Below are positions 6,701 to 35,453 of a stretch of DNA of 37,943 nucleotides, one piece after another. The position numbers and the translations under genes were made by a program. Numbering within the stretch: the first letter of the stretch is position 1; every line of letters starts with the position of its first letter. Below the pieces are notes generated by a model. The model was not told the origin of the DNA, searched no databases, and saw nothing but the letters and a program-made list of their open reading frames with translations. Origin of the DNA: Brasilonema sp. UFV-L1 (GTDB lineage: Bacteria; Cyanobacteriota; Cyanobacteriia; Cyanobacteriales; Nostocaceae). The DNA lies in assembly GCF_012912105.1 (NCBI RefSeq), contig NZ_QMEA01000061.1, positions 1 through 37,943 on the forward strand, in the 5' to 3' direction.

Positions 6701-8122
6701 ATGATGCCACAACAAGCAATAATCGCAGATGATTATCAAGCGTTCGCCCAACAAGAATTGGAAAGATATATTGAAGCTCAAGCCGAAAAAATTGCCCCAG
6801 ATGTAAATTTCTCTTTCCAAGCGCTACCAATTGCCACTGAGACTATCCTACGTCACGCACTAGCTCTGGCTAGTGAGAAACAAAAGCGGTCGCGCACAGA
6901 GTACAAAAAGCTGTTATCTGAGCATGGTTGGCTCAATGAAGACAAGAAATACCTCAAGGTGGCTGCTGCATTTGGTTCTTTCTCGCCCCAGGATTTAGTA
7001 CAAATCGAGCCAGATACCATCTTCCTACTGGCAAAGAACAGCAAGAAGTACCAGCCCGTCATTAACCAATTGCACGAGTCTGGAAAAGTTAGCCAACAGG
7101 TGGTTAGAGAACTCATTAAACAACAGCGCAAGTCCAGAGAGCCAAAGCCTGAGAAACCTAGTATATGGCGGCGAACGAAAAATGGTGGACGCTACTGTCA
7201 AATCCCACCTATCCACGAGGAACATGAGCGCACTGGTGTCACCTTACAGCAGATGATGGATTTTGAAGGGTTAACTGCACAGCAAATCGTGGCAGAAGCG
7301 ATTTCACTAAGGCAGGCATACCAGCAAGGGCGGCTGGTATTGGTTGATGATGCATACGCTTTGGAATCCCAACTCCACCAAAGTCTAACTCCTGAGATGA
7401 ACAGCGACCAAACAAATACGGTAGGAACAGACGAGGAAGGGGATGCCTGGGCGCAAGTTGTCGAAAAAACCATCAATCCAAATAATTTTAGTCAATTCCA
7501 AGCCCAGGAGCATCCAACAGCAGAAGAGGAAAATACCGATGGGTTGGATAAGCAACAACTCATTGAGTGCGATTGCACAGAGTGCAGCGCCCTTGCGGAG
7601 GATCATTCCAGTTCGAGTGATAACGTTTTAACTGTTGATGAGCAATCTTGGCTTGATTTTGTATCTGAGCCACAACTCAACCCTGGAACTAACTGCACGG
7701 GCGAACTAAAGTTTAACTCTGAGGTGAAACCGCCAGAACCTCCAGTTGAAATATCTGCCATTTCCCTACCAGTAGAGGAAAAGCCACTGACTTCAAGCCT
7801 TATAGCCCAAATGGTAAAACAAGCTGCTACTTGGTCAGAAGTTGTTCACATTACACAAAACTGCTCTCATGAATTAAAAAGCACTGCTTGGGAAATGCTA
7901 AATCCTCAAGAAAAGTGCCATATTCACCAACTGAAAAACCAACACTTAGAAAAATTAGCACTCATACCACAAGTAGGAAACAAAGTTTACTGGATGAATT
8001 GTCCTGCTCATCTTGCGAACTGGCAGCCGTTTTCAATTACCAGTATTCAAGGTGAGGAGGCAATGCTAGATATTTGTGCTTATCCAGTGCCACTGGCTCA
8101 ATTGCAGCTTTGCTCTACTTAA
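6701..8122 (+). CDS. Large uncharacterised protein with acidic central region
   Basis: The product is 473 residues from the ATG at 6701 (a second ATG follows directly). Upstream in-frame sequence exists but overlaps a HIP1-containing spacer and has no better signal. The N-terminal part (1-150) is helical and charged. A basic segment with KPSIWRRTKNGGRYCQIPP (about 152-170) looks like a nucleic-acid-contacting patch. A long acidic, Gln/Glu-rich disordered centre (about 220-340) follows, and then a compact C-terminus containing VYWMNCPAHLANWQPF. No family is recognised. Its position behind the duplicated helix-turn-helix gene suggests a shared role, perhaps in maintenance of an accessory element (inference). 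Confidence 0.6.
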   Translation: MMPQQAIIADDYQAFAQQELERYIEAQAEKIAPDVNFSFQALPIATETILRHALALASEKQKRSRTEYKKLLSEHGWLNEDKKYLKVAAAFGSFSPQDLVQIEPDTIFLLAKNSKKYQPVINQLHESGKVSQQVVRELIKQQRKSREPKPEKPSIWRRTKNGGRYCQIPPIHEEHERTGVTLQQMMDFEGLTAQQIVAEAISLRQAYQQGRLVLVDDAYALESQLHQSLTPEMNSDQTNTVGTDEEGDAWAQVVEKTINPNNFSQFQAQEHPTAEEENTDGLDKQQLIECDCTECSALAEDHSSSSDNVLTVDEQSWLDFVSEPQLNPGTNCTGELKFNSEVKPPEPPVEISAISLPVEEKPLTSSLIAQMVKQAATWSEVVHITQNCSHELKSTAWEMLNPQEKCHIHQLKNQHLEKLALIPQVGNKVYWMNCPAHLANWQPFSITSIQGEEAMLDICAYPVPLAQLQLCST

Positions 8123-8271
8123 ACACCTTCTTAGAACTTAAGCGAACCGTATTACGTCCAAGGTGAGGCAATAGCCATCACTGAAATTACCTGCGTTGTC
8201 TCCAGTTGTATAGTCCTCTTGCTACAATTTGGGGAAGTTAGAAGAAAATCAGGGTGAATAAAAGCCAAGCA

Positions 8272-11200
8272 CTATCTTGGTTGAAACCACTGGTAACAAA
8301 CAAGCTGAATATCTTCTGACTGAATAATTTTCGACGAGTTTAATTCTTTCTCTTCTTCAATTTGGTAATAATGGTCTTGATCAACAAACACCTCGTCTAG
8401 TTCAGAAACCAAAGCATTTAAATCTTTATGTTTAACATATTTTTCCCAAATGACTTTCATATCACGTTCGTAGATACTCAGGTTAACTGTAGTAATAACC
8501 TTTAATACCCGTCGCTTAACTTCCTGGTATGCTGCATCTTCATGTGTTGGACTAAATTGAGTCAAAGCTTGATAAATTTTCTGTAAAATCTTGCTTAGCT
8601 TAGGTTTGACTTGACTGCTAGTTTCCTGCTTTTTAAAGTTTGTCATCAAGTTACTTAAAGCCCCTTCTAAAATATCAAAGATGAAGTTATCAAACTTAAC
8701 CGGAAGTAGTTTGTTTGGAGGAGGAAAATCCTCAGCTTTACACTTGAGCCAGTTAAAAATTTTACGCTTATCCGTAACTAACTGATTTGGGTTAAGCGAA
8801 ATCACACCATTAATACGAGGGTAAAATTGCCAAAAGTGCTTATCTTTAGCACGAAATGCCATAAATATGCCTCCATCTCTAGCTTCAGGAATATAGAAAT
8901 GGCGGGTACTGTGAATCCCCAGTGGAATTTCTTCAGCTGCTTCCTCTCCTTCTTGTTTAAAAAATTCCAATAGGGGCAAACGCATTTCATCAAGAGACGC
9001 TAAATCAGCCGCTTGCTCAAGTTCCTCTAAAATTGCTTCTTTATCTGCATCGGTCACTGCTTTCTTAAGTCGGTATAATTCTTCTAATGATTTCTCTGAG
9101 ATGATTTCTCCTAAAACGCTAGCGTCTAATCCTACTTCTTTATCAATCACGGCTATTCGGGCTTGTAATCGTCGTACCAATCCGAGCAATGCCTCCAAAC
9201 CTTCTTCTGGAAAGCAGTTATAAATAAATAATTTTTCGTAGCTAGTACCCAAACGGTCAATTCGACCAGCACGCTGAATCATTCGTACTGGGTTCCAATG
9301 CAGGTCATAGTTAACTAAAACACCAGCATCTTGTAAATTTTGTCCTTCAGATAAAACGTCAGTGCAAATCAGAATATTAATTTCCTGATCTTGAATCTTT
9401 TGCTGTTCTTCCTGGCTTTGGCTGTTAGCTTTAGGCGCAAAGCATTTAACTTTTTCCTCTCTTTGCTTACTAGGAGTTTCACCAGTGATTTTGTCAATTC
9501 TAGGTAAGCTCTCATCTATTGCCAGTGTCTTTAACCAGTCTTCATCTGACAGTAACTGATTGTACAAATAATCAGCCGTGTCTTTGAAATAGCTGAAAAC
9601 CAAGACTTTCTGCCTCTTAAGCTCGCAAGCCAGCAATTCTTTGAATGCTGCTAGCTTGCGGTCGAAATCACGTCCTAGTTCTACATCTTTTTCAATTTGA
9701 CAAAGTGTGTTTATAATACTATTGAGAATATTGATGTCTGATTGAATTTGCGAACTTAATTCCTCAATTTGGTAATCATTGGGATCAATCTCATCTAAAG
9801 AGTTGATAAGTTCTTCGACGGAAATATTTTCCTCTTCATCTGTCTGTGCTGCTAGAATCTTGCGAAAAATCTTACTATCTAGCAGCTTACCTTGTTGTAA
9901 AAATGTAAAAAATCTTGATTGAAAATCCCTCTGATTGCAGATACTACTTTCAAAAGCAATCAGGGAACTTTCTAGCCGCTTCAGATACAGCGACTTTATT
10001 AGGCTAACAAGAGCGTCTTTGCGCTTGATATCATCTTCTTCTTGATTAGTTTTTCGCTTCTTAAACGCTTTAATGTTATAAGGAGCGAGATGCAATTCAT
10101 CAATTTTATTTGCTATCCCAGCGTAAAGTCCCTGAAAACTAGCTTCAAAATTATAGGTAAACTGTTTTAATTCTCGTTTGGGAAAGCGAATCTTTTGACC
10201 AGCGATATAAATTTCTTCTCCAGCAAGCTGCCGCTTGATAACATCCTGGCGAGAGCGCCTTACCATTGATTGGAAAAGCAGTTCAGTAATCTCTACATCA
10301 CCCTTGCTCAAAGCTTTAAAGTAAGTTTTTAGATTGGGAATACCCCACTCTCGGTAATATGTTTCAGTATTACGCGTTAGTAATAAAATTTGATGGTAAA
10401 GGTCATAAATGCTAGTATTTATTGGCGTTGCAGTTAATAGTAATACCTGCTTGTTTCGCTTACCACTGCCAATAATTTTTTGTAAATTTCGGTATCGATT
10501 GGTTGCACTATTACGAAAGTTATGCGATTCATCGACGACGATGATGTCATATTTGTTGTAGCGGCGGTTATCGAAGGTTTTAAGGCTAATTTCCTCCTGG
10601 GAAACTACATCTGCTTTAACTCCGTACTCATCCAGCTTTTTGAGCCACACCAAATCCCGCAATTGGGCTGGACATATCACCAGCGCACGAGGCACATAAC
10701 CAGGACGTCTGTCTTTAATAAGGTAGTGGTCAATCACTCGCAAGCCAATATAAGTTTTACCCAAACCTACAGCATCTGCCACCATACAACCCCGGTGACG
10801 CTCCAGCAACCTTACAGCACGCTCAAACCCTTCTTGTTGAAAACTAGCGAGTTCTAAGCTTGTGCGAACACTCCCTTGTGCCAAAGTGTCTTCTTTAAAA
10901 AGTTCGTAAAGTGCTTTTAAAAAGACCTGATAGGGTGTATATGCTTTACTGCCAAATTTAGAGGCATTCAGAGCATCAATTAGTTTGGCTTTGTACTCTT
11001 TATCAACACTTTTGTCATTCCAGAATTTCTCAAACCAATTTTGGCGAAGGTCTTGAGCAATTACTGATGTTTTATTCAAAACATTTAATTCTGTATTACC
11101 ACTCAATCCAGCAGGAGTGAAGTTACTAGAACCAATGATACTGTAGTTGTCAAAAATGTAAGCTTTGGCGTGGAGAAATGGCACATTTTCAGTTATGGCA

Positions 11201-11553
11201 CCATAAAGTCTGACATGGATATGGTGTTGTTGTAGATATGCAATTAAACGGTCAATTTGCTGTTTGTATTGCAACTTGAATTTCTCTGTTTCTAGTTGCT
11301 TTTGAATATCGTAACGGAAGTAGCGGGTTAAGTCGATGCGATCGCCTTCTGCTGGTCGAATCGTGGGATCACGACCAATTAGCAGGCGTAGGTGAGTTAA
11401 AGTGTTGAAAGCTTGCTCTAACCGTATCCATGCCTCAATCCGGAAAAACCCAGTCGCTATGTCTAAGTTTGTTTGCCTCTCATCCAGAACCAGCGAGCGC
11501 AAAACATCTTCTAATTTATGTTGATTATTGTCTACATAATCTGGGAGAGCCAT
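8272..11553 (-). CDS. PLD-nuclease/SNF2-family helicase fusion
   Basis: The product is 1093 residues from the ATG at 11551-11553 (AGG about 10 bases upstream; the longer start has no support). Residues about 25-180 form one phospholipase-D-type nuclease domain with the H-x-K pair H128/K130, followed by GSSNFT (141-146); such domains work as dimers. A superfamily 2 SNF2-like helicase follows: Walker A DAVGLGKT (260-267), DESH box (341-344), LTATP (373-377), motif V TDVLSEGQNLQDA (731-743) and motif VI QRAGRIDRLG (760-769). The C-terminal 300 residues are uncharacterised. SNF2 proteins with PLD domains occur in several phage-defence operons (for example DISARM encodes separate SNF2 and PLD proteins). 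It lies 109 bases downstream of the sigma/ATPase fusion gene, so the two likely form one operon. The defence role is inferred. Confidence 0.88.
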   Translation of the reverse strand: MALPDYVDNNQHKLEDVLRSLVLDERQTNLDIATGFFRIEAWIRLEQAFNTLTHLRLLIGRDPTIRPAEGDRIDLTRYFRYDIQKQLETEKFKLQYKQQIDRLIAYLQQHHIHVRLYGAITENVPFLHAKAYIFDNYSIIGSSNFTPAGLSGNTELNVLNKTSVIAQDLRQNWFEKFWNDKSVDKEYKAKLIDALNASKFGSKAYTPYQVFLKALYELFKEDTLAQGSVRTSLELASFQQEGFERAVRLLERHRGCMVADAVGLGKTYIGLRVIDHYLIKDRRPGYVPRALVICPAQLRDLVWLKKLDEYGVKADVVSQEEISLKTFDNRRYNKYDIIVVDESHNFRNSATNRYRNLQKIIGSGKRNKQVLLLTATPINTSIYDLYHQILLLTRNTETYYREWGIPNLKTYFKALSKGDVEITELLFQSMVRRSRQDVIKRQLAGEEIYIAGQKIRFPKRELKQFTYNFEASFQGLYAGIANKIDELHLAPYNIKAFKKRKTNQEEDDIKRKDALVSLIKSLYLKRLESSLIAFESSICNQRDFQSRFFTFLQQGKLLDSKIFRKILAAQTDEEENISVEELINSLDEIDPNDYQIEELSSQIQSDINILNSIINTLCQIEKDVELGRDFDRKLAAFKELLACELKRQKVLVFSYFKDTADYLYNQLLSDEDWLKTLAIDESLPRIDKITGETPSKQREEKVKCFAPKANSQSQEEQQKIQDQEINILICTDVLSEGQNLQDAGVLVNYDLHWNPVRMIQRAGRIDRLGTSYEKLFIYNCFPEEGLEALLGLVRRLQARIAVIDKEVGLDASVLGEIISEKSLEELYRLKKAVTDADKEAILEELEQAADLASLDEMRLPLLEFFKQEGEEAAEEIPLGIHSTRHFYIPEARDGGIFMAFRAKDKHFWQFYPRINGVISLNPNQLVTDKRKIFNWLKCKAEDFPPPNKLLPVKFDNFIFDILEGALSNLMTNFKKQETSSQVKPKLSKILQKIYQALTQFSPTHEDAAYQEVKRRVLKVITTVNLSIYERDMKVIWEKYVKHKDLNALVSELDEVFVDQDHYYQIEEEKELNSSKIIQSEDIQLVCYQWFQPR

Positions 11554-11662
11554 AATTGACACACCTTTTACCAGGAAAATATGATTCACAAATATTTTTG
11601 TTAGGTGAGTATCGCCCACCAGGATAAGTTTTACCCTTCCTTACCAAGAAAGGGATGCAGTC

Positions 11663-14600
11663 TTAATCTCTAGTAGCTTTCAGAATATGACCAATCACTG
11701 GTTGAACACACCAATAGTCCTTACCCTCTTTTTTTCCGACAGGATAGACAAAACTTAGTAGATCTGCCCATCTCAAAACTTTTTTCACAACATCGGGTTG
11801 GATATCATCTATTAAAGCTACTAATTCTTCAGTAGAAATACTATCTTCCGAATTTTGACACCAATCAGCTAAATCTTGTAGTACTTTCTGTTGCTCATAA
11901 TGCTCAATACCTAACTGTACTGTAATGAAGTCAAGTGCTTCTTGAGAGTTATTAAATGAATCTTTGAGTTCTTCTAAATGAAGTTCCCAATGATGTATAG
12001 CAGACTTGGAATTTTGGTAGAAACGGTTTAGTAGTGTTGACCAATTTCCTGTAACTGCGGTAATTTTTTCTCGACTGTCTTTATCACTGGGAAAATTACA
12101 ATCTTGTAACCATTGCCGTAAAGCTGTATCATGCCAAGGTTTTAAACTCAAAGTGGTCAGTCCATTCATTGAATGAAATTCTGTGTTATTTTTGCTAATT
12201 AACTGCCACGCTTTTTGAGGATCAGCAATAAATACCACCCGTACAAAGGAATTTTTTGCCCTCAATCTTCCAACAGGTTCTATTGCCTCATTAATCCAGT
12301 GCTGATTCCAAGGACAAGAAGCAGACACAAAAATGATTGTTATACCATCTTTTTGGCGATTGCGAAGTCGCTCTTTTAAGCGTTGGAAAAAATCATCTTT
12401 TGATAAGATGTCCTCCCAATAATAGTAGAAAAATTCCTTTTTCTTAGCTAGAACTGATTCCAGATAAAGCTTCAAGTTATCAAGTCCTGCTGCTAGAGTA
12501 CCAAATATCATGGAGACTCCATTTTCAGGAAGCAGAATTTTTGATTCCTGCTGAGCTGTTAAGAAGCTGCGCTTGGAGTTATCCTTAGTACTGATGATGC
12601 AACGAAAAGTTGCAGGTTCATATTCTAGGGGAATTTCGCGGGGTTCTAAAAGTGCTGCTTCAATTTCTTCAGGAGTTCCCATTAGCAGTAGTACGTTGGG
12701 ACTTCTTAAGGTGAAGCGACCCTTACTGGTCACACGTAAAACCCCTAATCCGACCATTTCTTCTAGCAGAACCTGAATTTCATCTGATGATAAACCTTGG
12801 AAGCCTTCATACCACCATGTCAGCACTTCATTACGAATCCAAGACACACCGAAACCATCCACCATACCATTTTCACCTTCTATGGAGTCATTGGCAATTG
12901 TGTAAGCAATCACTTCGTAGCGTCGGTCTAATTGCAGCGTCCACATAAAGCGATCGCGGATAGCTTTACGTAAGTCTTGGTTATTGTAAGCGTCATCAAC
13001 TTGCTGCGAAGTGATTATATAAGGAGGACTGTCTTTGGCATCAAAATTAGCGATATCAGGGTTAGTAACGTGCCTGAGCAATTGTTGACAGTAAAGTTGT
13101 ATTAAGCTGGGATAATAATTAGTCTGCGAAAGAATACGTGTTACCAAATCAGGAGATTCAAAGCGATAGCCAATGCTAGCAAATGGACGTTCAATTAAGG
13201 CTCTCGCTTCCCGCATTTCACCATTATTTAGCAGCGGACCAATACAAATCGGTTCTCCCAAATGAGCCAAAGGATGGTTCTCAAGCTTGGTAGTGCGCTG
13301 TACGTTATGTAAACCAGCAAATACTACCTTGAAGCGGCGATTTGTTCTGTCCATTAATCCTTTCAAACGAGCTGAGCGGATAAAGTCTCCCTTTTCCTTG
13401 TCTGCTGTGGATTTTTTGCTATCAGCTTCCAGAAACTTATCGGCTTCATCTAGTAACAACAAAATCTGGCGATTTTCGTCTTGCTCAAGCCAAAGTTGGA
13501 TTTGCTTGAACAGTTCATCAGGCTTTACACGGCTGGACGTTGTATCAGGAATGACGCCCAAACGTTTCAACTCAGCTGCCAGTATATTCCAAATTTCATC
13601 AATGTCTCTGTCATAACCAATTGCTTCGGCTTTGAGGTCGAGCCAAATTGCGATTTTTCCTTGCCTTGGTGAGTGAAAAGTACGCTCGACGAAGCGCAGC
13701 AAGACTGTTTTACCTAACTGTCGTCCGCCATAAATAAAGCAAGAACCTGTAGGAGCAATAATTGAGTCTCGCTCTCGTTCCCGCCCATAAAACATTTCTG
13801 GGGGAACAAACCCTGAAGTAGTTGTATACGGTTCTAGGAAAGTGAAAGGCAAGGTACACTCAAACAATATAGGTAAACGTGCGCCCCTTTCTCCGCACAG
13901 ATAAAACATGACAGCATCGTCGATAACTATGAAGGTGCGGCGACGTTCCTGACATAAACGCGCGAGGTCTCGGCGTCTTTTTTCCGTCATTCGTCCAAAA
14001 TGGAACACAAGTACTTTAGAGCCAACAGATGTATTCCCTACTGCATTGAGAATATCCTCCTCAGGTGGTCTATCCCATACACACAATATGCGGTAGCGCC
14101 CTTTAGCTTCTGAACCATAGGCTGGAACGGGACAACGCTTTTTGTCTTGAATTGCTTCAGTGGTAAAGTCAACCCAAAGAGAATTACCAACTTTTTTGAT
14201 AATAATATCTGCTATGTTAAAACCTAGACTGCTAAGAATTTGACTGACATCTTTATCAGTGATTGCTTGCTTTCTTCCCTTAACCGCAAACCAAGTATCA
14301 AGCATTTGAGCTGCTTGTTTTGCCTGAGCGCCCGGTACTTGCCGCATCTGGAGTGGTTCAATACTGCTACTACTTGCATGAATTTTGTTAATTAACTCGC
14401 GTCGCCTGTTTGGATTCCGGTCAGCAGGCTCAAGTAGTTCTTCTATTGAAGAATAGTTATCCCTAAAGAAGTCTACAAAAGCATCTCTCCTATTTTCTGA
14501 TTCGGGTATTTGTCGTCCCTGCTGCACCATATCTATATATTCATTGGCAGTCAGGACATCACCTTTATCTAATACACTGTTAATTCGTGCATAAGCGGGT

Positions 14601-17600
14601 TTGTCTTCCCCTATTTCTTGAATTAGTTTTTTTCTAGTCTCATCGATTTTTTCTTGTCGTTTGGTGTTAATTGCTTCACGTATAGCTTGTAGATGCAAAA
14701 GTTTATCGGTAAAACGTAGAGTGATTTTTATAGCATTTTCTATGCTTTCAATTTGTGCTGCATAATCTAAACGCTCAGTTTCTCTCAACAAACCCAAACC
14801 AACATTATCTTCTAGTTTTTTTCTCGTTTCATCGACAGCTTTCTCTAATTCTTCTCGACAGTTATCAATATCACGCGTTCGTTGTTGTTCAAGTTGCTCA
14901 ATATCAATTGTGGTGTCTGGATTGGCTCGAATATACTCAATAATTCGCTCAGTCGCCTCGTGGTCTTTACTATTGCTTTGCAACTGAAAAGCTGTTACCC
15001 AATTACAATGATCTTGTTCAACTATATTAATAATTTCCTTCACAAGCAAGTTTGAGCTTTTGACTTGAGGTTGCCAATCAGAGTCCATTACCAGCGAAGG
15101 GATTTTGAGCAATTCAGCATGAAGGAGATATTTTAACTCCGGCTCGATATTTGGTAAAGTCCCGTTGGGTTCAAAAAGATTGCGAATGTCTTCTACTGCT
15201 TTTCTACAACAAGAAATTCCCGCCTTAATCAATACAGAAGAATTTCTCGTATCGAAATTATCTAATTCTTGTAAAACGATTTTGTGAAGATTTGTAAGGT
15301 TTTGTTGCAATTGTTGAGCTTGAGTGTGAGCATAATTGTTGTTATTGCCCATGCGAGATTCTTGCAGTAAAATCCATTGACGTGCAAAGTTCACGGCTTC
15401 CCGAATGTGCTGACGAATCTGATTGAGAGCAATACCAGTGATGGTTTCACCGCTACTACGAATCAGACCTAGCTCGCGTTGCATACGTTTGACTTCTTCG
15501 TTAATCTGGGCTTCAGAAGACAATCGCTGCACATAATTTTTGACAACATCTAGCTGTCTCAAATTATTTTGCCTGATAGGTAATAGCAGTGAATAAATAG
15601 GTTGATTGGGCTTAATCCACTCGTTCCACACTGCCTTGGCTGGTCCATAAATCATATTTAAACGCGGAGCTTGAGTCCACCAAGCTTCAGCAGAGGAACG
15701 CAAAGCAGCTATCTCGGCTTCCCGCACCGTTTGATTCCTGACTATCTTGATGGCTGCGGTATCCAAAGCTAAACCTTGGTTACCATACTTAGAGATGGTT
15801 TGGCAATATTTATATAGTTGGTTAAAACCTTCTCCTAACCGCAGTAAGAGGAGAATTGCTGGAGCTTGAGTATTTGGTGCTAGCAATGCTGGACGTAATG
15901 CGGCTGTTGCTAGAAGTAAACTAATTGCTTGGTTCCACTCAGTGTCTCCATCAACAAAACAGTTGTTGCTTATATTAGTGAAATCACTCCTAAGAATGGT
16001 TGCAATCTCTCCTAATCCTGCGTCATAGCGCACATGGCAACCTAAAATGACTCCCCGAATTATTTCTGGCGGTAAATGGGGTTGGAAATTAGGGTATAGC
16101 TCTATCAAGCAACATGCTAAATGATACGCAAAACTAAGTTTCTTTTCTCCAAGCAGTTGCCAAATTTGGTTACGAAGGGCTAACGGATGTTGTTCATTAA
16201 TATTATCGCTGATGGAGATAGTATTTTTTTGTTTTGTATCCTCTGCCGTTAACTCGTATTGAAGCTGTACCTCTTCCTCCCTTAATTCCTCCTCAAAAGC
16301 ATTCTGAGAAACTTCGAGTTTGGGCAAGGGCGGAGTTACAATTTCTTTGTTAGCTGTTGTTTGAGAAGGTGTGGTTAATGTTGTAGCTGGTTGAGGATCT
16401 ATTATAAGTTCATTGCTAGCTAGTGTAATAGCTGACTCTAGCTGTGCTGCATTTGATTTTCTTGTAGTTTGTTGCTTTGGTGGAGCCACTATTTTTAGTT
16501 TAGGAGGCTCAAAATTGGAGATTGCCTCATCTCCTTTAATACTTGAAGCTGAGGGTAAATCTTGTATGAGTTCTTCTCGAACTATAAGTCCTCCTGTCAA
16601 CGCTGCTAAAGCTAAAGGCATACCCAACGATTGGGTAACAGCTGTCTGTAATTCTGCTAAATGTTGGTAGTCAGCAGACTCGCGAACTGATATCAGTGCC
16701 AACAATTTCGAGAATACATGATTGCTATCAGCTAAGCTTTGAGTATCAGGATGTTCAGACCCCTGTGATTCTAAAAGGGCTTGGTAGAGTTCACGGGCTT
16801 TTATCTGACATTCCTGTAAAGGTTGAAAATCGCTTTCTACTCGATGGGCTATAGCCAAAATACGCTGTAAAACTGTCAAAGCAGAAATACGTACTTCCTC
16901 GCCTTTTGCTTTTTTCTTCTCCACCTCTACAACAGATTGCAACAAAGATTCAAGATCACGGCAGGAAACAATTTCATCAAGCTTAGGAATGGGCGATACT
17001 TCAGAGGAGGCAGCTAATTCCAGCACGATGTTACACAACTGAGCAAAAATTTTTCGACATTCCTCTATCTCTAAAATTAACTCTTCGGTTAGAGGTATAC
17101 CAGGGTTTTGTAACTCTCTCGTCGCCTTTATTAATTGGTCACCAAGTTTAGAAAATCTAGTTTGTAGAGAAGTAAGTTGTGCCAGTATATTTGTTGAATT
17201 GTATTCCATGATTTTCATCGTTCGACTCAAAGGAATTTCTCTCATATTGGTGACGCTGTGAAGAGTCTCTTGACCAGAAGTATAATTCTGATTTTTTTCT
17301 TCTAAATTGACTCTATTAGTTGAAGCTTTGGGGGAGAGAAAAGTCTCTTCTTTAGAAAAAGGAGTAACCCTTGGAAGAATATATTGCTGATGTTTAATTA
17401 TTTTGGGCTTCCATAAACGTAATTTATTTAATCCTTTCTCCTCAATTTGACGAATTCGCTCGCGTGTTAAATTATAGTAATCACCAATTTTTTGTAATGA
17501 TTTCCCGCTTTGAGCGTCAAACCCATATCTCATTTTTAAAATATCTCGGGTGCGAGTGTCGAGGATATTCAAGAGAGTTTCTATTTCTTCCTGCAACAGA

Positions 17601-18856
17601 GTTTTATGTAGCTGTTCTTCCGGTGTATCGCCATCAAATTCAATCCAGTCTCCTAATGTAGTGTCTTCTTCCTCGCCAATGCGAGTATCTAAGGAAATTA
17701 AGGGAAGAGCCATTTTAACTATAGAACGCAGCTTTTCAGTTGTCATCTCCAAGCTAGTGGCGATTTCTTCTTGTTTGGGAATACGACCCATTCCTTGAGA
17801 AAGCAGCTTGGTTGTTTTCTTAACCTGAGACATTTTTTCCCAAAGATGAACGGGTAGGCGGATTGTACGGGATTGGTCATTAAGCCCTCGTTTTATCCCC
17901 TGCCTAATCCACCAAGTTGCGTAAGTGGAAAACTTATTACCCTTTGTATAATCAAATTTTTCAACCGCTCTGATTAATCCTAGATTTCCTTCTTGAATTA
18001 AATCTAAAAAATCAACGCCTAGATTGGTATATCTCTTAGCAATTGAAACGACTAACCGCAGGTTTGCCTCTATCAGCTTGTTTTTAGCATATCGACCATT
18101 AGCTATTTGTTTGCGCAGTACTAATGAGGATATACCAACTGCTGACGCTAGCTCTTCATCTTGAGGATTTCGTTGAAGTTGCTTTTGTAAGCGTTTTCTA
18201 ATTTTTTCTAACTCTTCTAACTGTGCTATTTGACGAGCAAGAACAATCTCTTCTGATACTTTTAATAGTTTAATTCGCCCAATTTCTTGCAAATACAAGC
18301 GAACTGAATCTGGGAATTCGTACCGTTGCTGGAGTTGTTTAAACCTAAGTGCTTCGTGCTGGATACGGTGAAGTGTTTGGGGGTTAAGCTTCACAGCAGC
18401 GATTTTTTCTAATCGATTCAGGTCATGATAACTAGGGTCAGCAGTGTTAATCAAACACTTGTGAATGCTGAATGTTAAATTCATTTGAGCGTCAAAGCTT
18501 TGGTGAGGACTGATAAGCATTAGCTGCCTGTAGTCCTTTGTACCTAACAAGAAAAAATAAGAAGAGCGCTGACACAGACTGTTAGCGATCGCCTGCATTC
18601 GATAAGTAACAGCACCAAGCTCAGACCATTCATTAGGTTTCAGTTGAAATAGCAAAACCTGTAATTCTGCATCCCCCTGGTTTGCAATTAAGTAAACCTG
18701 GTTAACTGCTTGAGCGCTTCGCTCTGGAAGCTCCAAGACGCTAATGTCCAAAAGCTGGCAAGTGGTGTTATAACCAAGCTTTTGAAATAATGTTGCGACT
18801 TGTTTTGGACTATTAGCGTTTCGTACATCATCTAAGTGCAGTAACCGTTGAGGCAT
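11663..18856 (-). CDS. Giant sigma-70 factor/STAND-like ATPase fusion
   Basis: The product is 2397 residues in one uninterrupted frame. (1) Residues 1-170 are an uncharacterised alpha/beta domain. (2) Residues about 183-482 are a group-2-like sigma-70: region 1.2 DSVRLYLQEIGRI, region 2 with NLRLVVSIAKRY (265-276), DLIQEGNLGL (285-294) and YATWWIRQGIKR (312-323), region 3, and region 4.2 helix-turn-helix LTRERIRQIEEKG. (3) Residues about 550-760 are a helical domain, then a Thr/Pro-rich linker (about 775-880). (4) Residues about 890-1510 are helical, with coiled coil near 1310-1420. (5) Residues about 1530-1685 are an alpha/beta domain. (6) A FYGRERERD box leads into a P-loop ATPase, Walker A GGRQLGKT (about 1710) and Walker B LLLLDEADKF (about 1800), with a winged helix after it. 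(7) Residues about 2090-2397 look like a second NTPase-like module without Walker A. No frameshift is seen at the junction (485-550), though internal ATGs near residues 538-550 could give a separate ATPase product. Function unknown; anti-phage sensing is a hypothesis. Confidence 0.9.
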   Translation of the reverse strand: MPQRLLHLDDVRNANSPKQVATLFQKLGYNTTCQLLDISVLELPERSAQAVNQVYLIANQGDAELQVLLFQLKPNEWSELGAVTYRMQAIANSLCQRSSYFFLLGTKDYRQLMLISPHQSFDAQMNLTFSIHKCLINTADPSYHDLNRLEKIAAVKLNPQTLHRIQHEALRFKQLQQRYEFPDSVRLYLQEIGRIKLLKVSEEIVLARQIAQLEELEKIRKRLQKQLQRNPQDEELASAVGISSLVLRKQIANGRYAKNKLIEANLRLVVSIAKRYTNLGVDFLDLIQEGNLGLIRAVEKFDYTKGNKFSTYATWWIRQGIKRGLNDQSRTIRLPVHLWEKMSQVKKTTKLLSQGMGRIPKQEEIATSLEMTTEKLRSIVKMALPLISLDTRIGEEEDTTLGDWIEFDGDTPEEQLHKTLLQEEIETLLNILDTRTRDILKMRYGFDAQSGKSLQKIGDYYNLTRERIRQIEEKGLNKLRLWKPKIIKHQQYILPRVTPFSKEETFLSPKASTNRVNLEEKNQNYTSGQETLHSVTNMREIPLSRTMKIMEYNSTNILAQLTSLQTRFSKLGDQLIKATRELQNPGIPLTEELILEIEECRKIFAQLCNIVLELAASSEVSPIPKLDEIVSCRDLESLLQSVVEVEKKKAKGEEVRISALTVLQRILAIAHRVESDFQPLQECQIKARELYQALLESQGSEHPDTQSLADSNHVFSKLLALISVRESADYQHLAELQTAVTQSLGMPLALAALTGGLIVREELIQDLPSASSIKGDEAISNFEPPKLKIVAPPKQQTTRKSNAAQLESAITLASNELIIDPQPATTLTTPSQTTANKEIVTPPLPKLEVSQNAFEEELREEEVQLQYELTAEDTKQKNTISISDNINEQHPLALRNQIWQLLGEKKLSFAYHLACCLIELYPNFQPHLPPEIIRGVILGCHVRYDAGLGEIATILRSDFTNISNNCFVDGDTEWNQAISLLLATAALRPALLAPNTQAPAILLLLRLGEGFNQLYKYCQTISKYGNQGLALDTAAIKIVRNQTVREAEIAALRSSAEAWWTQAPRLNMIYGPAKAVWNEWIKPNQPIYSLLLPIRQNNLRQLDVVKNYVQRLSSEAQINEEVKRMQRELGLIRSSGETITGIALNQIRQHIREAVNFARQWILLQESRMGNNNNYAHTQAQQLQQNLTNLHKIVLQELDNFDTRNSSVLIKAGISCCRKAVEDIRNLFEPNGTLPNIEPELKYLLHAELLKIPSLVMDSDWQPQVKSSNLLVKEIINIVEQDHCNWVTAFQLQSNSKDHEATERIIEYIRANPDTTIDIEQLEQQRTRDIDNCREELEKAVDETRKKLEDNVGLGLLRETERLDYAAQIESIENAIKITLRFTDKLLHLQAIREAINTKRQEKIDETRKKLIQEIGEDKPAYARINSVLDKGDVLTANEYIDMVQQGRQIPESENRRDAFVDFFRDNYSSIEELLEPADRNPNRRRELINKIHASSSSIEPLQMRQVPGAQAKQAAQMLDTWFAVKGRKQAITDKDVSQILSSLGFNIADIIIKKVGNSLWVDFTTEAIQDKKRCPVPAYGSEAKGRYRILCVWDRPPEEDILNAVGNTSVGSKVLVFHFGRMTEKRRRDLARLCQERRRTFIVIDDAVMFYLCGERGARLPILFECTLPFTFLEPYTTTSGFVPPEMFYGRERERDSIIAPTGSCFIYGGRQLGKTVLLRFVERTFHSPRQGKIAIWLDLKAEAIGYDRDIDEIWNILAAELKRLGVIPDTTSSRVKPDELFKQIQLWLEQDENRQILLLLDEADKFLEADSKKSTADKEKGDFIRSARLKGLMDRTNRRFKVVFAGLHNVQRTTKLENHPLAHLGEPICIGPLLNNGEMREARALIERPFASIGYRFESPDLVTRILSQTNYYPSLIQLYCQQLLRHVTNPDIANFDAKDSPPYIITSQQVDDAYNNQDLRKAIRDRFMWTLQLDRRYEVIAYTIANDSIEGENGMVDGFGVSWIRNEVLTWWYEGFQGLSSDEIQVLLEEMVGLGVLRVTSKGRFTLRSPNVLLLMGTPEEIEAALLEPREIPLEYEPATFRCIISTKDNSKRSFLTAQQESKILLPENGVSMIFGTLAAGLDNLKLYLESVLAKKKEFFYYYWEDILSKDDFFQRLKERLRNRQKDGITIIFVSASCPWNQHWINEAIEPVGRLRAKNSFVRVVFIADPQKAWQLISKNNTEFHSMNGLTTLSLKPWHDTALRQWLQDCNFPSDKDSREKITAVTGNWSTLLNRFYQNSKSAIHHWELHLEELKDSFNNSQEALDFITVQLGIEHYEQQKVLQDLADWCQNSEDSISTEELVALIDDIQPDVVKKVLRWADLLSFVYPVGKKEGKDYWCVQPVIGHILKATRD

Positions 18857-19019
18857 CTCATCATAGAAGAAATAATTTCAGTTAGTTGTCAAAAGAAAAA
18901 TGCTTAATATCTCCTTGCCCATGCTTTGCAAGTTTCCCTAGCACCGCCGAAATCAACTTCATCAGCTAAAGCAAGGACTAAGTGCGTCAGTTATCCGAGG
19001 TTATCCAAAAGACAAGTGA

Positions 19020-19181
19020 TGTTTATTTAGTAGGAAACTGTTTTTGTATAAATCTAATCAAAAACAAGAGTTGGCGTATAAGGCTAATCTACCTCTAGCT
19101 ACTTTATTACTAGAAGAAGGGTTTTTAATTGCCATCAGCCTTTTGAACCCTGAAATACGTAAGATTGCTGAAACTTTTTGA
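19020..19181 (+). pseudogene. Possible gene remnant (C-terminal fragment)
   Basis: A 53-codon open stretch without a credible start codon ends in a protein-like sequence (LPLATLLLEEGFLIAISLLN, then PEIRKIAETF). Its composition looks coding, unlike the AT-rich surroundings (18857-19293), which otherwise hold no gene I can support. It may be the tail of a lost gene. No family recognised. Confidence 0.3.
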
Positions 19182-19293
19182 ATTTATTTTATATATGTTA
19201 CTATATTTCTAGTGAGTTTACCAAGAGTAATTTTACTTAGAAAAATAAAAATCCAAAATTCTATTTGTGACTAATTTTTTATTTAAATGTTGC

Positions 19294-19443
19294 TTAATCC
19301 CTCGGCATGGCTGTTTTTGGAGGGGACAATGCGTCAACCTTATTGACAAGGGAGACGTTTTTACCTCCCGCTCCTTGGGAACGAACTGCACTAATTTCGA
19401 TGTCACACTCAGGAATAATAATTTTGTGAGAAATTTGCAGTAT
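19294..19443 (-). pseudogene. arfB: Broken ArfB-like ribosome-rescue factor gene
   Basis: Reading leftward, the sequence gives LQISHKIIIPECDIEISAVR, then SQGAGGKNVSLVNKVDAL. This matches the N-terminus of the ArfB/YaeJ peptidyl-tRNA hydrolase family, whose intact form has I-P-x-x-E-I-E-I-S-A-I-R-x-x-G-A-G-G-Q-N-V-N-K-V. Three lesions are visible: the expected start codon is ATA (19441-19443), the catalytic GGQ is GGK, and about three extra codons split the N-V-N-K motif. The frame then runs into an unrelated end, and the remaining two thirds of the protein are gone. Intact ArfB rescues ribosomes stalled at the ends of truncated messages. This copy cannot function. Confidence 0.65.
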
Positions 19444-19497
19444 GACTTACATATAGCTTATTGTGCCTCAACTCAACAGCCTATAAATATAAGGTGC

Positions 19498-19774
19498 TCA
19501 ATCGTCTGTTCCATCTAGTTTTACGATAAATTCTTCTGCAACTGGTTGCTGTGCTGTAAATTTTTTTTTGGATGCGCGCAATCGCTTTACGACTCGGTTT
19601 AGAAGCAGTCGTTTTTTGTGGGCGACATTCCAGGCAATATAATGGTTGTGACGGGTAACAGGTGCGCTCTACCACCTGATTGCAATTTTTGCAGACGAAT
19701 CGGTAAACTCGTTGCCCCCAGGATTCGAGTGTGAGCTTTAATGAAAACTTCCAAAATTCCCCCTGTCTTATTCC
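19498..19774 (-). pseudogene. Zinc-ribbon protein gene with a frameshift at an A9 tract
   Basis: The leftward frame open from 19774 encodes a two-CxxC zinc ribbon: FVCKNCNQ, then CYPSQPLYCLECRPQ, then a basic KPSRKAIARIQKK segment. At the run of nine T on the + strand (19561-19569, A9 in the message) the frame passes into a poor basic tail ending at 19481. Removing one A instead continues as FTAQQPVAEEFIVKLDGTDD and a TGA at 19498-19500, a convincing acidic C-terminus. Either a homopolymer mutation or sequencing error has broken the gene, or polymerase slippage restores the frame. There is no good ATG in the zinc-ribbon frame upstream, so the 5' end may also be lost. Probably a small nucleic-acid-binding protein. 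Confidence 0.45.
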
Positions 19775-20151: not shown

Positions 20152-21087
20152 TTACATTTTCACATTGATGCGCTCATTCGCAACCTTTAAAAGATCTATT
20201 TCAACCGAATTAAGTACTTTAGGCTTCATCTGTTGTAAGTCACCTAGCACAATTTTGACATCCTCCGTCTGGAATTTGTAGTACTCAGTTAAGTTCCCAA
20301 TGGGATAGTTAAAATCTCGATAGCGATGTTTAAAATACAGTTCTACATTCCCTCGATGTTCCCAAGTTCCTAGCACTTTGATATCATCAACGCTTTGATA
20401 ATGAGCAAGTAAATCTATTTTTATCTCTGCCAACCGCTCTGAAATAGGTCGTTGAGTTACTCCTATCTTGTGTAAAGTATCTTGATTTGTATAAATTTCT
20501 AAAAAGTACAACCGACAGGAGAGGATACGTTTGAATTGAGCGCAATATAGTTTGAGATCTGTAAATATGTAGTCCAAATCAGGAGCATTTTTGTGAAGAG
20601 CGTGTTCTACAGCTAACTCTAACTTCAGTAATTTTTTGAGTAGTAGTGGCTCTTGTACCTCGTTAAATAGCATTAACTCTAGCGCTCCTATAGGAATTTT
20701 ACCTAGATTGGTAAATTCATATTGATATGGGAAAGTAGAAATATTTTTTTGTAATAATCCTGCTCGAATTAGACCAGAAGGAACTAGGTCAGGACTTATA
20801 AAGTAATATGCGGAGCCATACTCTTTCCATAGTAATTTCAATTGCTGAAAATCCTTACTCGATAAATGAATGTCGAAGTTGTCATAGAGTGGTAGAACTG
20901 GAAATTCACGGGTTAATACCGGACGGCAGGTTTGTTTAGTATGGGCAAAATGATGCTCTTTTATCTTGCCTTTTTTGGCAGTCAGTTTACAATCGCAATA
21001 GGGGCACTTAAGTGAGGTTTTTCCCTTGGTGACGTCTGAGATATTTACCAGTGTTCCATTTTCATCTATACCATATTTTAGCCACAT
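20152..21087 (-). CDS. CoiA-type zinc finger protein with GIY-YIG-like (T5orf172/MUG113) domain
   Basis: The product is 311 residues. The N-terminus has a zinc-binding set as in competence protein CoiA and related nucleases: CPYCDCKL (Cys28, 31, 33) and EHHFAH (His45, 46, 49). The middle (60-185) is helical and uncharacterised. The C-terminal part (about 192-272) fits the T5orf172/MUG113 branch of the GIY-YIG nuclease fold: LYFLEIYTN replaces the GIY strand, KIGVTQRPISERL (207-219) supplies the K-I-G-x-T and Arg residues, and NVELYFKHRYRDF (247-259) holds the expected Glu (Glu249) and helix. It may act on foreign or branched DNA. It stands alone, with weak AAGG before the ATG, in a degraded neighbourhood. 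Nuclease activity is inferred from fold motifs. Confidence 0.72.
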   Translation of the reverse strand: MWLKYGIDENGTLVNISDVTKGKTSLKCPYCDCKLTAKKGKIKEHHFAHTKQTCRPVLTREFPVLPLYDNFDIHLSSKDFQQLKLLWKEYGSAYYFISPDLVPSGLIRAGLLQKNISTFPYQYEFTNLGKIPIGALELMLFNEVQEPLLLKKLLKLELAVEHALHKNAPDLDYIFTDLKLYCAQFKRILSCRLYFLEIYTNQDTLHKIGVTQRPISERLAEIKIDLLAHYQSVDDIKVLGTWEHRGNVELYFKHRYRDFNYPIGNLTEYYKFQTEDVKIVLGDLQQMKPKVLNSVEIDLLKVANERINVKM

Positions 21088-22856: not shown

Positions 22857-23192
22857 ATGATGGAGAAAGAAGCTCAAGAGGCAGAAGAAGCGGGACGTAC
22901 CAGAGTAATTGTGCAGGATAACGGGCCGATACACCGATGTAAAGAAGCGCAAAAACTATGGTTAAAGTGGGAAAGTCAGGGTTTGTACATCTTTTTTTTG
23001 CCCGAATACTGTTCACAAATGAACCCAATTGAGTTGGAGTGGCAGCACCTTAAAAAAGATGAACTATGTGGGCAAATGTTTGATGATGAGTTAGACCTCG
23101 CTTATGCCGTAATTGATGGGGTTAAAGCTAGGGGAGAAAAAGGGAACTTCAGTACACAACGTGTTAAATTTAACTCTATTCACTTTGCTTAA
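22857..23192 (+). pseudogene. 3' fragment of an IS630-family transposase
   Basis: The 111 codons correspond to the last third of an IS630/Tc1-like transposase. The second catalytic Asp is in VIVQDNGPIH, and the final Glu is in YCSQMNPIELEWQHLK, followed by the family's C-terminal helix. The N-terminal DNA-binding part and first catalytic Asp are missing (usual length about 340 residues), so it is inactive. Sequence directly upstream is not transposase-like; the deletion point is near 22850, right after the DCC gene stop. Confidence 0.85.
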
Positions 23193-24126: not shown

Positions 24127-24708
24127 CTAAAGCAATATAATCTCGAAAAACTCAGCTTGACCGACATTATAACGAATGCTATCTTGCGATGAATACAATT
24201 CGTTACCCTGCATATCATTAACCCGGATGTATAAATCTGGTTGTTTTTCGATAATATCAGCAAAATCGCGTTCGTGATAAATCACGGCAAAGTCCCCATA
24301 CTCGTCTGTTTCTGTATCGCCAAGAAGGTCATCATAAACACAATCACGGTCAAATATACGTACCTGCACTCCCGACACTGGGTTTCCTTGGGAATTGAAG
24401 ACTGTGCCAAATACTACCCACTCACCAGGTTTAACTTGGGGGCGACGTTGGGCGCGGGTGAGGGTTGTTTGCAAATTTTGCTGGAGTTGATTGGCGAAGG
24501 TAGCAGCTTCCCGCAAGGCGATAACTTGGGGATGATTTTCTCCTAAACTTGCTTTTAGTCGGTCTTCTGCACTAGCTAGACGTGCAGCACGTTGTTGCTG
24601 TAAGCTGGCAAGTTGAGTAAAACTACCAACAATTGCATCGTTGGTTTGCTTTTGCAATTCATTGAAGAGATTCTTAATATTATCTAAAGGAATATCGTTG
24701 GCGTTCAT
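24127..24708 (-). CDS. Coiled-coil protein with transthyretin-like domain, injection-system accessory
   Basis: The product is 193 residues. The N-terminal half (about 1-90) is helical and Gln/Ala-rich with coiled-coil character. The C-terminal half (about 98-190) looks like a carboxypeptidase-regulatory/transthyretin-like beta sandwich: WVVFGTVFNSQGNPVSGVQV, an Asp-rich turn region and the closing Y-G-D-F-A-V strand. Such sandwiches often mediate binding or cap a fibre. It starts 7 bases after the beta-helix fibre-like gene and is the last gene of the operon. A tail-fibre partner, chaperone or cargo are the main options; no toxin motif is visible. Confidence 0.65.
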   Translation of the reverse strand: MNANDIPLDNIKNLFNELQKQTNDAIVGSFTQLASLQQQRAARLASAEDRLKASLGENHPQVIALREAATFANQLQQNLQTTLTRAQRRPQVKPGEWVVFGTVFNSQGNPVSGVQVRIFDRDCVYDDLLGDTETDEYGDFAVIYHERDFADIIEKQPDLYIRVNDMQGNELYSSQDSIRYNVGQAEFFEIILL

Positions 24709-24715
24709 ATATTTA

Positions 24716-27700
24716 TCACCCTCCAGATGTTGTTATTGTGTTGATTCTGGGACAAAATGTATTGATGATTATTTGGTTCAACTCTGAGGTTGGCTGAATT
24801 GTTCCCTGGATTGTCAGACAATGAGTTGCCTGATTGTTTGTAGCTAGGTTAATTAATCCAATAGATAGGTATGACCATAAGGCTTGTTGAGGTAATTCGT
24901 TAAAGCGATTGCCAGAAGCGCGAATTGTGGGAGCCAGTGTTAATACATTTATTAATAAGGGAGGTACTCTGTTTTGATTGATTTGTACATTACCAAGAAT
25001 TTCGATGAGAATTTGATTGTTTTGCAGGGATATGTCATCTAGAGAATAGATAAATACAGTTGTCCAGATGGGTTGAGAAACGGTTTGTAATTCCTGCAAT
25101 GTCACTTGATTGTCGTGAAACATTACCCGTCCATCGGTAACTCTGCGGGGTTGTGCGATCGCAATTCTACCAAAAGTAGTATTGGAAACTGCAAAATTAT
25201 TATTCAACTGATAACTAAGAGCGGTGTTAACTAGGAATGGATCTTGACCAAGATTAAAAATAAAGACGCATCTGCCGAATATATTAACCAGATTGAGATT
25301 CAAGCTCTCTGGTTGTTGGACAAGTCCTTGAGAGGTTAAAGTATTTCCGATCACCGACATTGAACCCGCACCAAATAATATTAGGGCTTGACCTGCGGGA
25401 GTCACAACGATATTGTTATGAATGAATGCAGCTGGAGCAGCAGCTTGTACGCGAGCAAGTCTTTCTACATTTGGTGTTTGGGATTTACCAGCTAATACTA
25501 CCCAGCCAACAATCCCTGCTTGTAAGGTTGTGTTGTCTTCTTGTTGCGCCGACGAACCATTGTTAACTATAGTGTTATTAGTTACTTCTAATTCAAAGCA
25601 CTGGAAAACAAAAATACCACATGCTCTGACATTTTCCTTGACACCATTGTCATTTCTCTGTACACCATTGTCAGCAATATAATTGTTTTGGATACGGACT
25701 TGCGAAACTTCTCGGAGAATAATTCCACCCACCGTTAGGGAATCAAACAAAGGATTGACTCCTTTTGCAGCACATTCAACAATGTGGTTGTGGGCAATTG
25801 TGATATTTGTAATATCACCAAAATTGATTTTTTCTGTGCCTTCGAGATTATCAACAGTACTAATACCACTGTTAGACATCTTGGAGATGCGATTGCCAAT
25901 AATTTCGATGCCAAGAATACCTGTGCTGCGCTTTGAAGGATTGACTTGTTGAGGTAATTTTCCTAAAATAATTCCTGCACCAGCACCTTGGGAAATATCA
26001 TTGTCGTGAATAAGGATGTTTGCAGAACCGTCGCAAATCCAAAGACCTCCACCAAGAAGCCGATTCTTGAGAAGTTGTAAATTTTCTGCTTGGATGCAGA
26101 GATTGCAAAATGCGGATTGGTTTTGGTTAACAAATTGGCAACCAGTTACAGTGATGTTATCACTTTCGGTTGCCCAAATGGAACCCAACTGGGAGTCTAC
26201 TTCTATCCACAAGGATTCAAAGATGATGTTGTTGCAGGAGTTTAACTGAAATACTGGTTGATTATTCTGTCCTTGGATGTAAGCTTGACGATCGCACCCA
26301 CTAATAATTAAATGACTACCACTGTTAATGACGATTGGTTCCGCAATTTTGTAAACTCCTGGTAGGATACAGATTTTTACCCAGGTATTCTCTTTTCTTT
26401 CTCCCAACACATAAGCGATCGCATCTTCAATTCTTGTAAAGTCTCCTTGACTTTGCACTCCATCAGCAACTGTTACTGTGCAGCATCCACCCGTTTTTGG
26501 TAATTCTGTCAATGGTGGGAAAATGGGACGACAGTCAGTAATAACTTTTAATGTTTCAGTTTCAAGTTCAAGTTGAACAAGAGCTAAACGACAGTAATGG
26601 TGCTTAATTCCCAAAGGTAGCTGTGGTATCGGAGATAAAGATAATGTCGAATTATCGATAAACCACTCAATTTGTCCGGTGGCTGTGCGTGCGGGTATGA
26701 GCCAGTAATCGCCTGTTTTATAAGTTCCAGAATCAAATTTAACTTCAATTCCTCCTTCCAACTGCATCCAGTTGTTGGTGATCTTTACACCATCAACTGT
26801 GGCGGTAATTCCCTGCTGTTCCCAACGGCGTAATTTAGGATGTAGCTGCAAATTCACACCACTATTAGGTTGACTGGAATCAAAAAGGCTAGGGATAACA
26901 CTCAATTCAATAACCCGCGTTGCTGCATCAAGTTTGATAATTTGTAATAACTGCCCTGGTTTCCCATTCAATTCTAATTCATCATTGATGACTTCCACCC
27001 ATTGACCAGGAGCAAAACCTAACACTTCATCCTTACCCACATTCGCCACTATCAGATTTTGACCGTTGATTTTCTCAATAGCAGTAACAACTGAACCATT
27101 TTCCCGCGACCATTTAAAGGTTACACCATTTGGGTGGTCGCTGCCATAATGAATTTCCACGCGGTAGAGTTGATTTTCTAACCGTTGATAACCAGCAGTA
27201 GGGGGAATCAAACAAGGGTTTTTTGGGTCTTCAATGGGTTTGGTTTGGGCATTTAATTTTCCTGTACTGCTCGCAATTAATTTATCCCATTCTGTTAGTT
27301 GAGTTTGACAACTTAATTGTTCTGAGATTGGATGTTTAACTGGTAAAAATTTTACCTGCCACACAGTTTTAGCACGAGTTGCTGTATCTGCACCACCCAA
27401 AGCCACTTCTCGAATTCGTTGGTCATTCAGGGCTGTAATATGGCGTTGCCAAACATCCAAATAGACAATACCTATATCTGTCTTAGCATCACTCAGTAAC
27501 TTAATGATATCATCAGCAGAATTTGGTAAGTTGGGTTGTTTTGTGTATAGTAGTTTTTCGTGGTTTTCACACAAAATACCATGTACATAAAACCGACCTT
27601 TACTAATACTTAATTGATTGTCTGTAATTGTAATTTCAAAACCAGCATCATGCTTAGGCGTACCACATTTACCAATAACATCTTGAGTTTCAGTTTCAAT

Positions 27701-27826: not shown

Positions 27827-27865
27827 CCTAACCTCCTCTTTTCTTTTTTCTTTCTTCTTTGGCGT

Positions 27866-27948: not shown

Positions 27949-27956
27949 TTATATAT

Positions 27957-29963: not shown

Positions 29964-29970
29964 TTCTCCT

Positions 29971-30000: not shown

Positions 30001-30005
30001 AAAAT

Positions 30006-35284: not shown

Positions 35285-35287
35285 AGG

Positions 35288-35412: not shown

Positions 35413-35453
35413 ATTAGTTATTAGTCAAGAATTCTTCTCTCTCACTCCCCTCC

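Follow-up and report, generated by a model that had tools for sequence, protein, structure and literature searches.

In restriction systems with translocating nucleases, the nuclease depends on a methylase or specificity subunit to reach its site, and methylation is the textbook rule by which such systems tell self from foreign DNA. Here we describe a locus at which a sigma factor is found in the place of the methylase. It lies in a 37,943-nucleotide stretch of DNA from Brasilonema sp. UFV-L1 (contig NZ_QMEA01000061.1, positions 1 to 37,943; hereafter the window), in which one gene encodes a protein, designated P0001, that joins an N-terminal domain (N-domain) to a complete sigma-70 factor and a P-loop ATPase region, and the next gene downstream encodes an HKD-SNF2 helicase-nuclease. 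The nearest relatives are pairs composed of a helicase of the same family and a Type IIG-like (Eco57I) N6-adenine methylase, which recognises and marks DNA and is the usual partner in most of the helicase family. These methylases carry an N-domain related to that of P0001, and the helicase gene follows downstream, as it does in our clade A. At loci of the present kind, in contrast, sigma-70 occupies the place of both the methylase part and the target-recognition part, and an ATPase module of 1900 residues may or may not accompany it; P0001 itself has no methylase domain, and only the N-domain is common to both kinds of partner.

Other defence systems resemble the locus in part. According to PMC12839542, BREX-related Type-2 systems combine an HKD-SNF2 helicase, an N6-methylase and a DUF499 ATPase. 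These systems and DISARM share a restriction-modification logic with the locus, and profiles of DrmD (helicase) and DrmMI (methylase) gave matches; Pfam detected neither DUF499 nor DUF3780 in P0001 or the 18 other open reading frames (ORFs) scanned in the window, and neither DrmA/B-type proteins nor DUF1998 in those 18 ORFs, the rest of the genome not having been searched. A sigma factor, MzaA, is a component of mzaABCDE, which PMC9523054 describes as a validated defence system. The MzaA label for P0001 was rejected: the profile covers the sigma part only, and the SigA-like sigma of the same genome scores higher (218.9 versus 173.4 bits). Matches to MutL, Z1 and AIPR were absent from the 18 other ORFs (Pfam). 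Sigma-like helix-turn-helix (HTH) domains are mentioned for BrxL (PMC12839542) and for some DndH proteins (PMC10853773). In those proteins an HTH domain is what resembles sigma, whereas P0001 has a complete sigma factor with core-binding region 2. A first-pass annotation, made from the letters alone, had stated that it knew of no described system with this architecture. In the open-access literature searched, indeed, neither the joining of a complete sigma-70 to an N-domain of the methylase type nor its placement next to an HKD-SNF2 helicase is described, but mzaA provides a precedent for sigma factors in defence.

The P0001 gene is a single open frame (11663-18856, minus strand) with an ATG start, 2397 codons for amino acids and no internal stop. 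The first-pass annotation had proposed this 7.2-kb frame, without stating its strand, as a sigma factor with regions 1.2 to 4.2 joined to a P-loop ATPase, and both parts were recovered. Four sigma regions score above the Pfam cut-off (Sigma70_r1_2 at residues 182-214, E 1.2e-10; r2 at 260-330, 3e-23; r3 at 339-414, 1.4e-23; r4 at 428-479, 2.4e-13), and the translation contains the motifs WWIRQ and GRERE, the Walker A sequence GGRQLGKT and the Walker B sequence LLLLDEADKF. AAA_22 matched residues 1703-1849 with 26.9 bits (E 7e-6), just under its cut-off of 27. As to a signal-transducing STAND ATPase, the model nSTAND1 appeared only in the relative L059 (L numbers denote loci, G numbers genomes), with 25.2 bits against a cut-off of 27.1, and Pfam named no repeats in P0001, C-terminal sensor repeats being a STAND trait. 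Genome G004 contains a full-length P0001 frame with 95% identity; its gene is letter-identical to the copy on Brasilonema octagenarum plasmid pBOCT2 (CP030123.1), and the two were counted as one. Window positions 8000-19500 match pBOCT2 at 96.8% identity over 97% of the length of this stretch, and the plasmid annotation calls the pair "helicase" and "hypothetical protein". Because this near-identical frame exists elsewhere and single-ORF fusions of sigma and ATPase are present in other cyanobacterial genera, a frame or assembly error is rejected, and the annotation's proviso that the fusion might be confined to this one sequence falls away. A degenerating or chance fusion without function would be in keeping with the broken loci L063, L093 and L113, but is extremely improbable given the continuous frames in several genera, sigma parts that are 51-72% identical between the window and L064, L065, L070 and L066, and an overall ratio of nonsynonymous to synonymous substitution rates (dN/dS) of 0.33 in the closest orthologue pair (ATPase 0.11, sigma part 0.47, N-domain 0.63, from few changes).

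The neighbouring helicase matches the PADLOC profile C3a139 "HKD+Snf2" (E 2e-63) and also DrmD profiles. It adjoins the sigma protein in the window, in L058, L060, L062, L064-L069, L075 and in further loci, downstream of it in clade A and upstream in clade B, which has a helicase of 27-28% identity. Walker A, motif II and motif VI are intact in all 39 aligned helicase rows, 26 from the sigma side (including one with unknown partner, one with a sigma remnant and one with the ATPase alone) and 13 from the methylase side. The H and K of the HKD motif are present in 38 of the 39 rows, the exception being the truncated L098, and the D is present in 25 of 38, among them the window's. Kinship of the helicase to RapA is only a lead, as RapA chains rank first when the helicase profile is compared with the PDB, the best stretch being 49 positions. 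Related helicases were also found in 59 phage records, every one distant (below 60% identity). At L106, a gene for an Mrr-type restriction endonuclease (7554-8414) lies directly upstream of the N-domain-sigma/helicase pair on the same strand.

To which partners the helicase is coupled was assessed in two collections. Across the order, the helicase search detected matches (E <=1e-40) in 63 of 388 genomes; G248 was judged from the helicase match alone, which starts at base 2 of its contig. The close group (at least 58% identity) comprised 27 substantial places, 3 fragments being excluded. The partner was a sigma protein at ten places, sigma plus ATPase at three and a methylase at nine (once split over two frames); the remainder had the ATPase alone (one) or a sigma remnant (one) or lay at a contig edge (three). 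At none of the 27 places were sigma and methylase partners both intact. The methylase partner consists of the N-domain and about 900 further residues containing an Eco57I methylase and a TaqI_C specificity domain (Pfam); PADLOC labels it Type IIG (REase_MTase_IIG). In a second, named collection, 569 helicase stretches were confirmed, of which the best 80 were kept, giving 79 loci, with some genomes shared with the order-wide set. The contigs of this collection did not match when scanned with the whole of P0001, but did match with the helicase alignment. Its 19 cyanobacterial loci had a methylase (6), sigma (5), sigma plus ATPase (1) or neither or a contig edge (7), while the 60 non-cyanobacterial loci had a methylase in 34 cases, neither or a contig edge in 25, a distant unfused sigma in one and a fused sigma in none. 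Within this sample, the methylase is the widespread partner of the helicase and sigma the cyanobacterial one. The reverse search with residues 1-175 matched 49 of the 388 genomes; at 17 of twenty places fetched the helicase lies within the stretch (as a fragment in L093), the others being L094, L100 (contig edge) and L104. Beside the window pair there is no methylase of the Type IIG-like family, and one distant place (34% identity) is located elsewhere in the genome (G000).

Residues 1-170 of P0001 and the N-termini of the helicase-linked methylases are related; F24, Y29 and A58 are the only invariant positions. An AlphaFold2 model of the N-domain has a mixed alpha/beta fold (mean predicted local distance difference test, pLDDT, 92.3); for N-domain plus sigma, pLDDT was 78.9 and the predicted template modelling score (pTM) 0.39. 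The clade-B proteins (L060, L066-L069, L075), in which sigma is fused to the ATPase, bear a different N-terminal domain (N-domain B), and this domain likewise recurs on clade-B methylases (L129, L131). Similarity between the N-domains of the two clades was not detected (hhalign probability 0.2%, with shallow alignments).

Sigma and methylase alternate on the helicase tree. Among 81 labelled of 116 rows a quick method counted at least 8 changes between the two partners, 35 unlabelled or ATPase-only rows being left out of the count. The helicases of L114 (sigma) and L099 (methylase) are 91.3% identical in DNA across 3303 bp, a span that takes in roughly the entire gene and nothing beyond; their partner proteins have only the N-domain in common (29% identity). 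Decayed methylases were found just upstream of the sigma gene at three of the ten sigma-only places, with end points differing among loci: L062 retains pieces corresponding to query residues 1-71 and 881-1108, L095 residues 1-192 and 866-1146, and L097 the last 46 residues. At L113, pieces 1-51 and 1082-1116 precede a broken sigma gene.

From these data, the sigma protein and the helicase probably work together at these loci. Their association is well supported; the mechanism that follows is inferred. At a probability of about 0.38, our preferred reading, drawn from sequence comparison, is that P0001 would serve the HKD-SNF2 helicase-nuclease as partner subunit, the two making up a restriction-like system against phage, with sigma replacing the recognition subunit. 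Residues 1-170 would dock on the helicase-nuclease, because nothing else is shared by the methylase and sigma partners. The sigma part would bind the RNA polymerase core, promoter DNA or both, as core-binding and -35-binding residues are retained. Since a related N-domain carries sigma instead of a methylase, the nuclease would be led to promoters or initiating polymerase rather than to methylation sites, where it would cut or strip DNA. The ATPase, where present, may make the reaction conditional on a sign of infection, perhaps the takeover of polymerase or foreign transcription. In its most specific form, which we put forward only tentatively, the helicase-nuclease would be aimed at promoters or initiating polymerase on invading DNA, so that self and non-self would be distinguished by transcription state instead of by marks on the DNA. 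An anti-phage role is suggested by family kinship and genomic neighbourhood. The first-pass annotation had likewise taken the sigma-70/ATPase frame for a likely part of a defence system that possibly rides on polymerase; this much may stand, but the helicase, the kinship of the N-domain and the optional nature of the ATPase had escaped it.

Several observations weigh against the preferred reading. It does not account for the sparing of the cell's own promoters. The D of the HKD motif is replaced in 13 of 38 rows, including all six clade-B sigma rows. A Foldseek search of the N-domain against the PDB gave no convincing fold, the top matches having template modelling (TM) scores of about 0.27, and the dN/dS values of 0.63 and 0.47 for the N-domain and the sigma part are based on just 6 and 21 changes, respectively. 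In the sigma part, the first W of the melting motif is replaced in 6 of 27 fused sigmas (G in two, H in four), and the window sigma has K where SigA has T, a position that we take to be E. coli T440. As to the history of the exchange, the L114 contig is short and its genome incomplete; no methylase remnant was found at seven of the ten sigma-only places or at the window-type loci (window, L058, L064, L065, L070), some of these having little upstream DNA; and on Planktothrix agardhii plasmid p4 (L212) methylase and sigma lie together in one gene run. When 33 N-domain rows were placed in a tree, the ten from methylases fell into one group (support 90/93), and 11 of the 14 that belong to sigma proteins of helicase-type loci formed a second (96/99). 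Finally, nine complete N-domain-sigma proteins (L061, L104, L216-L222) have no adjoining helicase, a tenth (L223) being cut, and a close helicase was found nowhere in the ten genomes concerned, several of which are incomplete (partial matches of 29-40% occur in three). The N-domain can thus serve a sigma factor without this helicase.

These stand-alone proteins (481-502 aa) belong to two lineages, L061, L221 and L222 being from one genus with shared neighbours and L104 and L216-L220 from another family. The system may have drawn its sigma from proteins of this kind, or they may be regulators that have since parted from it; possibly they are domesticated sigma factors. Their occurrence beside shared neighbours, as expected of ordinary regulators, would also agree with a transcription switch, in which the N-domain-sigma protein, once triggered, functions as an alternative sigma and induces the helicase or other genes, being itself an effector of transcription rather than the part that aims. 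Promoter-contact residues of regions 2.4 and 4.2 are largely retained in fused sigmas, and extracytoplasmic function (ECF) sigma genes occur in other conflict loci (PMC8195603). We nevertheless regard such a switch as somewhat unlikely, given that sigma lies directly beside the helicase in the methylase's place, on a related N-domain and in two helicase clades, and that DNA upstream of P0001 shows no excess of promoter-like matches (3 versus a shuffle mean of 3.8) and, apart from two short two-copy repeats, nothing else.

The separate N-domain groups, with which L092, L098 and L070 firmly associate in neither case, imply that methylase and sigma partner genes are old sisters. A simple exchange of domains on one N-domain is weakened by these groups, by the helicase-free forms and by the p4 locus, and the alternation may reflect differential loss from operons with both genes, or exchange of whole genes. 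The run on p4 consists of a methylase frame, a 434-aa protein, N-domain-sigma and helicase. The methylase is annotated as a DNA methyltransferase, but with a gap in its profile coverage and a methylase end in the 64-aa frame behind it, it may not be intact. Genes of the GIY-YIG type were noted near this locus. Methylase, sigma and helicase in one run, together with the methylase remnants that adjoin sigma genes elsewhere, would fit a sigma that merely times expression of the restriction operon, similar to a C protein, and lingered after the methylase was lost. This we judge very unlikely: a mere regulator would need no methylase-like N-domain, sigma was retained beside a helicase with intact motifs after methylase loss, and in some loci it is fused to a giant ATPase.

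The state of the sigma part is compatible with binding to polymerase. It aligns with the cyanobacterial SigA structure 8h3v over nearly its full length (E 2e-112). Its identity to SigA-like proteins, both in relatives and in the genome that encodes it, is about 60%; this genome (8.3 Mb, 337 contigs) has 14 sigma region-2 matches including P0001. The annotation had named missing core-binding residues as a possible objection; by alignment, the region 2.2 motif DLIQ is present in 27 of 27 distinct fused sigmas (including L061 and L104; DLIQEGN in the window), and the melting motif keeps its second W throughout. A few of them (e.g. L067 and L070) have an altered -35 motif RERIRQ, and region 4 is absent in L116. 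In the sigma tree, from which 10 of 45 rows were dropped (8 near-copies of SigA, one truncated and one unrelated), a single clade of all fused sigmas apart from free ones was rejected (approximately unbiased, AU, test, p 0.00081; long branches are present), and one clade for the sigmas of the two ATPase-fusion groups was not rejected (p 0.076).

Closeness to SigA, the lack of a single clade, as expected of bait captured repeatedly, and the joining to a P-loop ATPase that evolves more slowly than sigma would all suit an integrated decoy, to which phage proteins that attack sigma or polymerase bind, thereby triggering the ATPase and the helicase-nuclease. Several fused sigmas are, however, far from SigA, the ATPase is lacking in most sigma partners, and the methylase-like N-domain and the methylase's place are left unexplained, so that we consider a decoy unlikely. 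The ATPase is indeed optional: among the 27 close helicase places, 10 of 13 sigma partners do without it.

The ATPase is a travelling module. A search with residues 549-2397 matched 82 of the 388 genomes at E 1e-10, many partially. Single ORFs with N-domain (A or B), sigma and ATPase were found in the window, L058, L060, L064-L070 and L075, with L060 and L075 lacking most of the middle region; L076 has a partial ORF of this kind, and a sigma-ATPase ORF in L036 is cut by the contig end. Relatives without sigma (L059, L071, L072, L073) are separate proteins of 1781-1824 aa equivalent to residues 549-2397, and in three of these four loci, not in L072, a gene for 379-387 aa follows. This uncharacterised gene (L059:14296-15459, L071:11966-13117, L073:12388-13527, L213:13233-14366) and the sigma-less ATPase look like a separate two-gene candidate defence module, which differs from our locus in its partner of about 383 aa and in having no sigma; it adjoins Druantia-type genes in L059 and Avs2 in L073. 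Plasmid records contain further, more distant sigma-less relatives. In Salinibacter the gene after the ATPase matched a profile of the ~383-aa family (E 6.5e-49); the match in Azospirillum was weak (4.6e-19), and the next gene in the Thiodictyon plasmid record gave none. RNaseH_pPIWI_RE was matched in part close to the N-terminus of the Azospirillum protein. At L074 (4180-9863; the same as L148), a helicase of 992 aa is followed by a C-terminal ATPase part of 902 aa with no sigma, and as this ATPase nests within the sigma-fusion clade, secondary loss of sigma is likely. Stretches resembling residues 549-840 occur in separate proteins, mostly of about 420-670 aa, in many genomes of the order (e.g. 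G383:C10:9953-10675). In L098 (7619-9835) an N-domain-sigma protein has a C-terminal pentapeptide-repeat region where the ATPase would sit. A further candidate, the N-domain as a dead PD-(D/E)XK nuclease, modelled on Type IIG enzymes, was unsupported by the fold search and the three invariant residues.

Coordinates of P0001, its parts and the adjoining helicase gene in the window
Feature	Coordinates	Strand	Basis or remark
P0001, N-domain-sigma-ATPase protein	11663..18856	-	frame, Pfam, orthologues
N-terminal domain, residues 1-170	18347..18856	-	kin to N-terminus of Type IIG-like adenine methylases
Complete SigA-like sigma-70, regions 1.2-4.2, residues 171-490	17387..18346	-	Pfam, 8h3v match
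MID1 region, residues 549-860	16277..17212	-	related stretches in separate, smaller proteins
MID2 region, residues 861-1480	14417..16276	-	mostly absent in 1882-aa versions L060 and L075
P-loop ATPase region, residues 1481-1960	12977..14416	-	Walker A 13706-13729, Walker B 13433-13462
C-terminal region after ATPase, residues 1961-2397	11666..12976	-	no Pfam match
HKD(PLD)-SNF2 helicase-nuclease, 1115 aa	8272..11619	-	next gene downstream, same strand, 43-bp gap

Other genes of the window were recorded alongside. Upstream of the sigma gene, a protein with a CoiA-like N-terminus and a GIY-YIG-type (MUG113/T5orf172) domain is encoded at 20152-21087 (minus strand), and a DDE_3 transposase fragment at 22857-23192 (plus strand) is the trace of a mobile element. 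A C5 cytosine DNA methylase on the opposite strand (2990-4147, plus) could mark self DNA; it was not seen in the conserved unit. Positions 24127-37812 (minus strand) hold baseplate-type genes (gp25, Phage_base_V, two Baseplate_J, a Gp48/Tail_P2_I-like gene and a DUF6519 beta-helix protein) of the contractile injection system or phage tail type.

For the family, the data show that in many cyanobacteria a restriction-type helicase with intact motifs stands beside a sigma factor and no methylase, a decayed methylase being visible in some. Near-identical helicases occur with either partner, which makes the idea testable. If sigma does aim the nuclease, this would constitute a new, transcription-based rule of recognition, in which RNA polymerase and the cutting of DNA are naturally linked.

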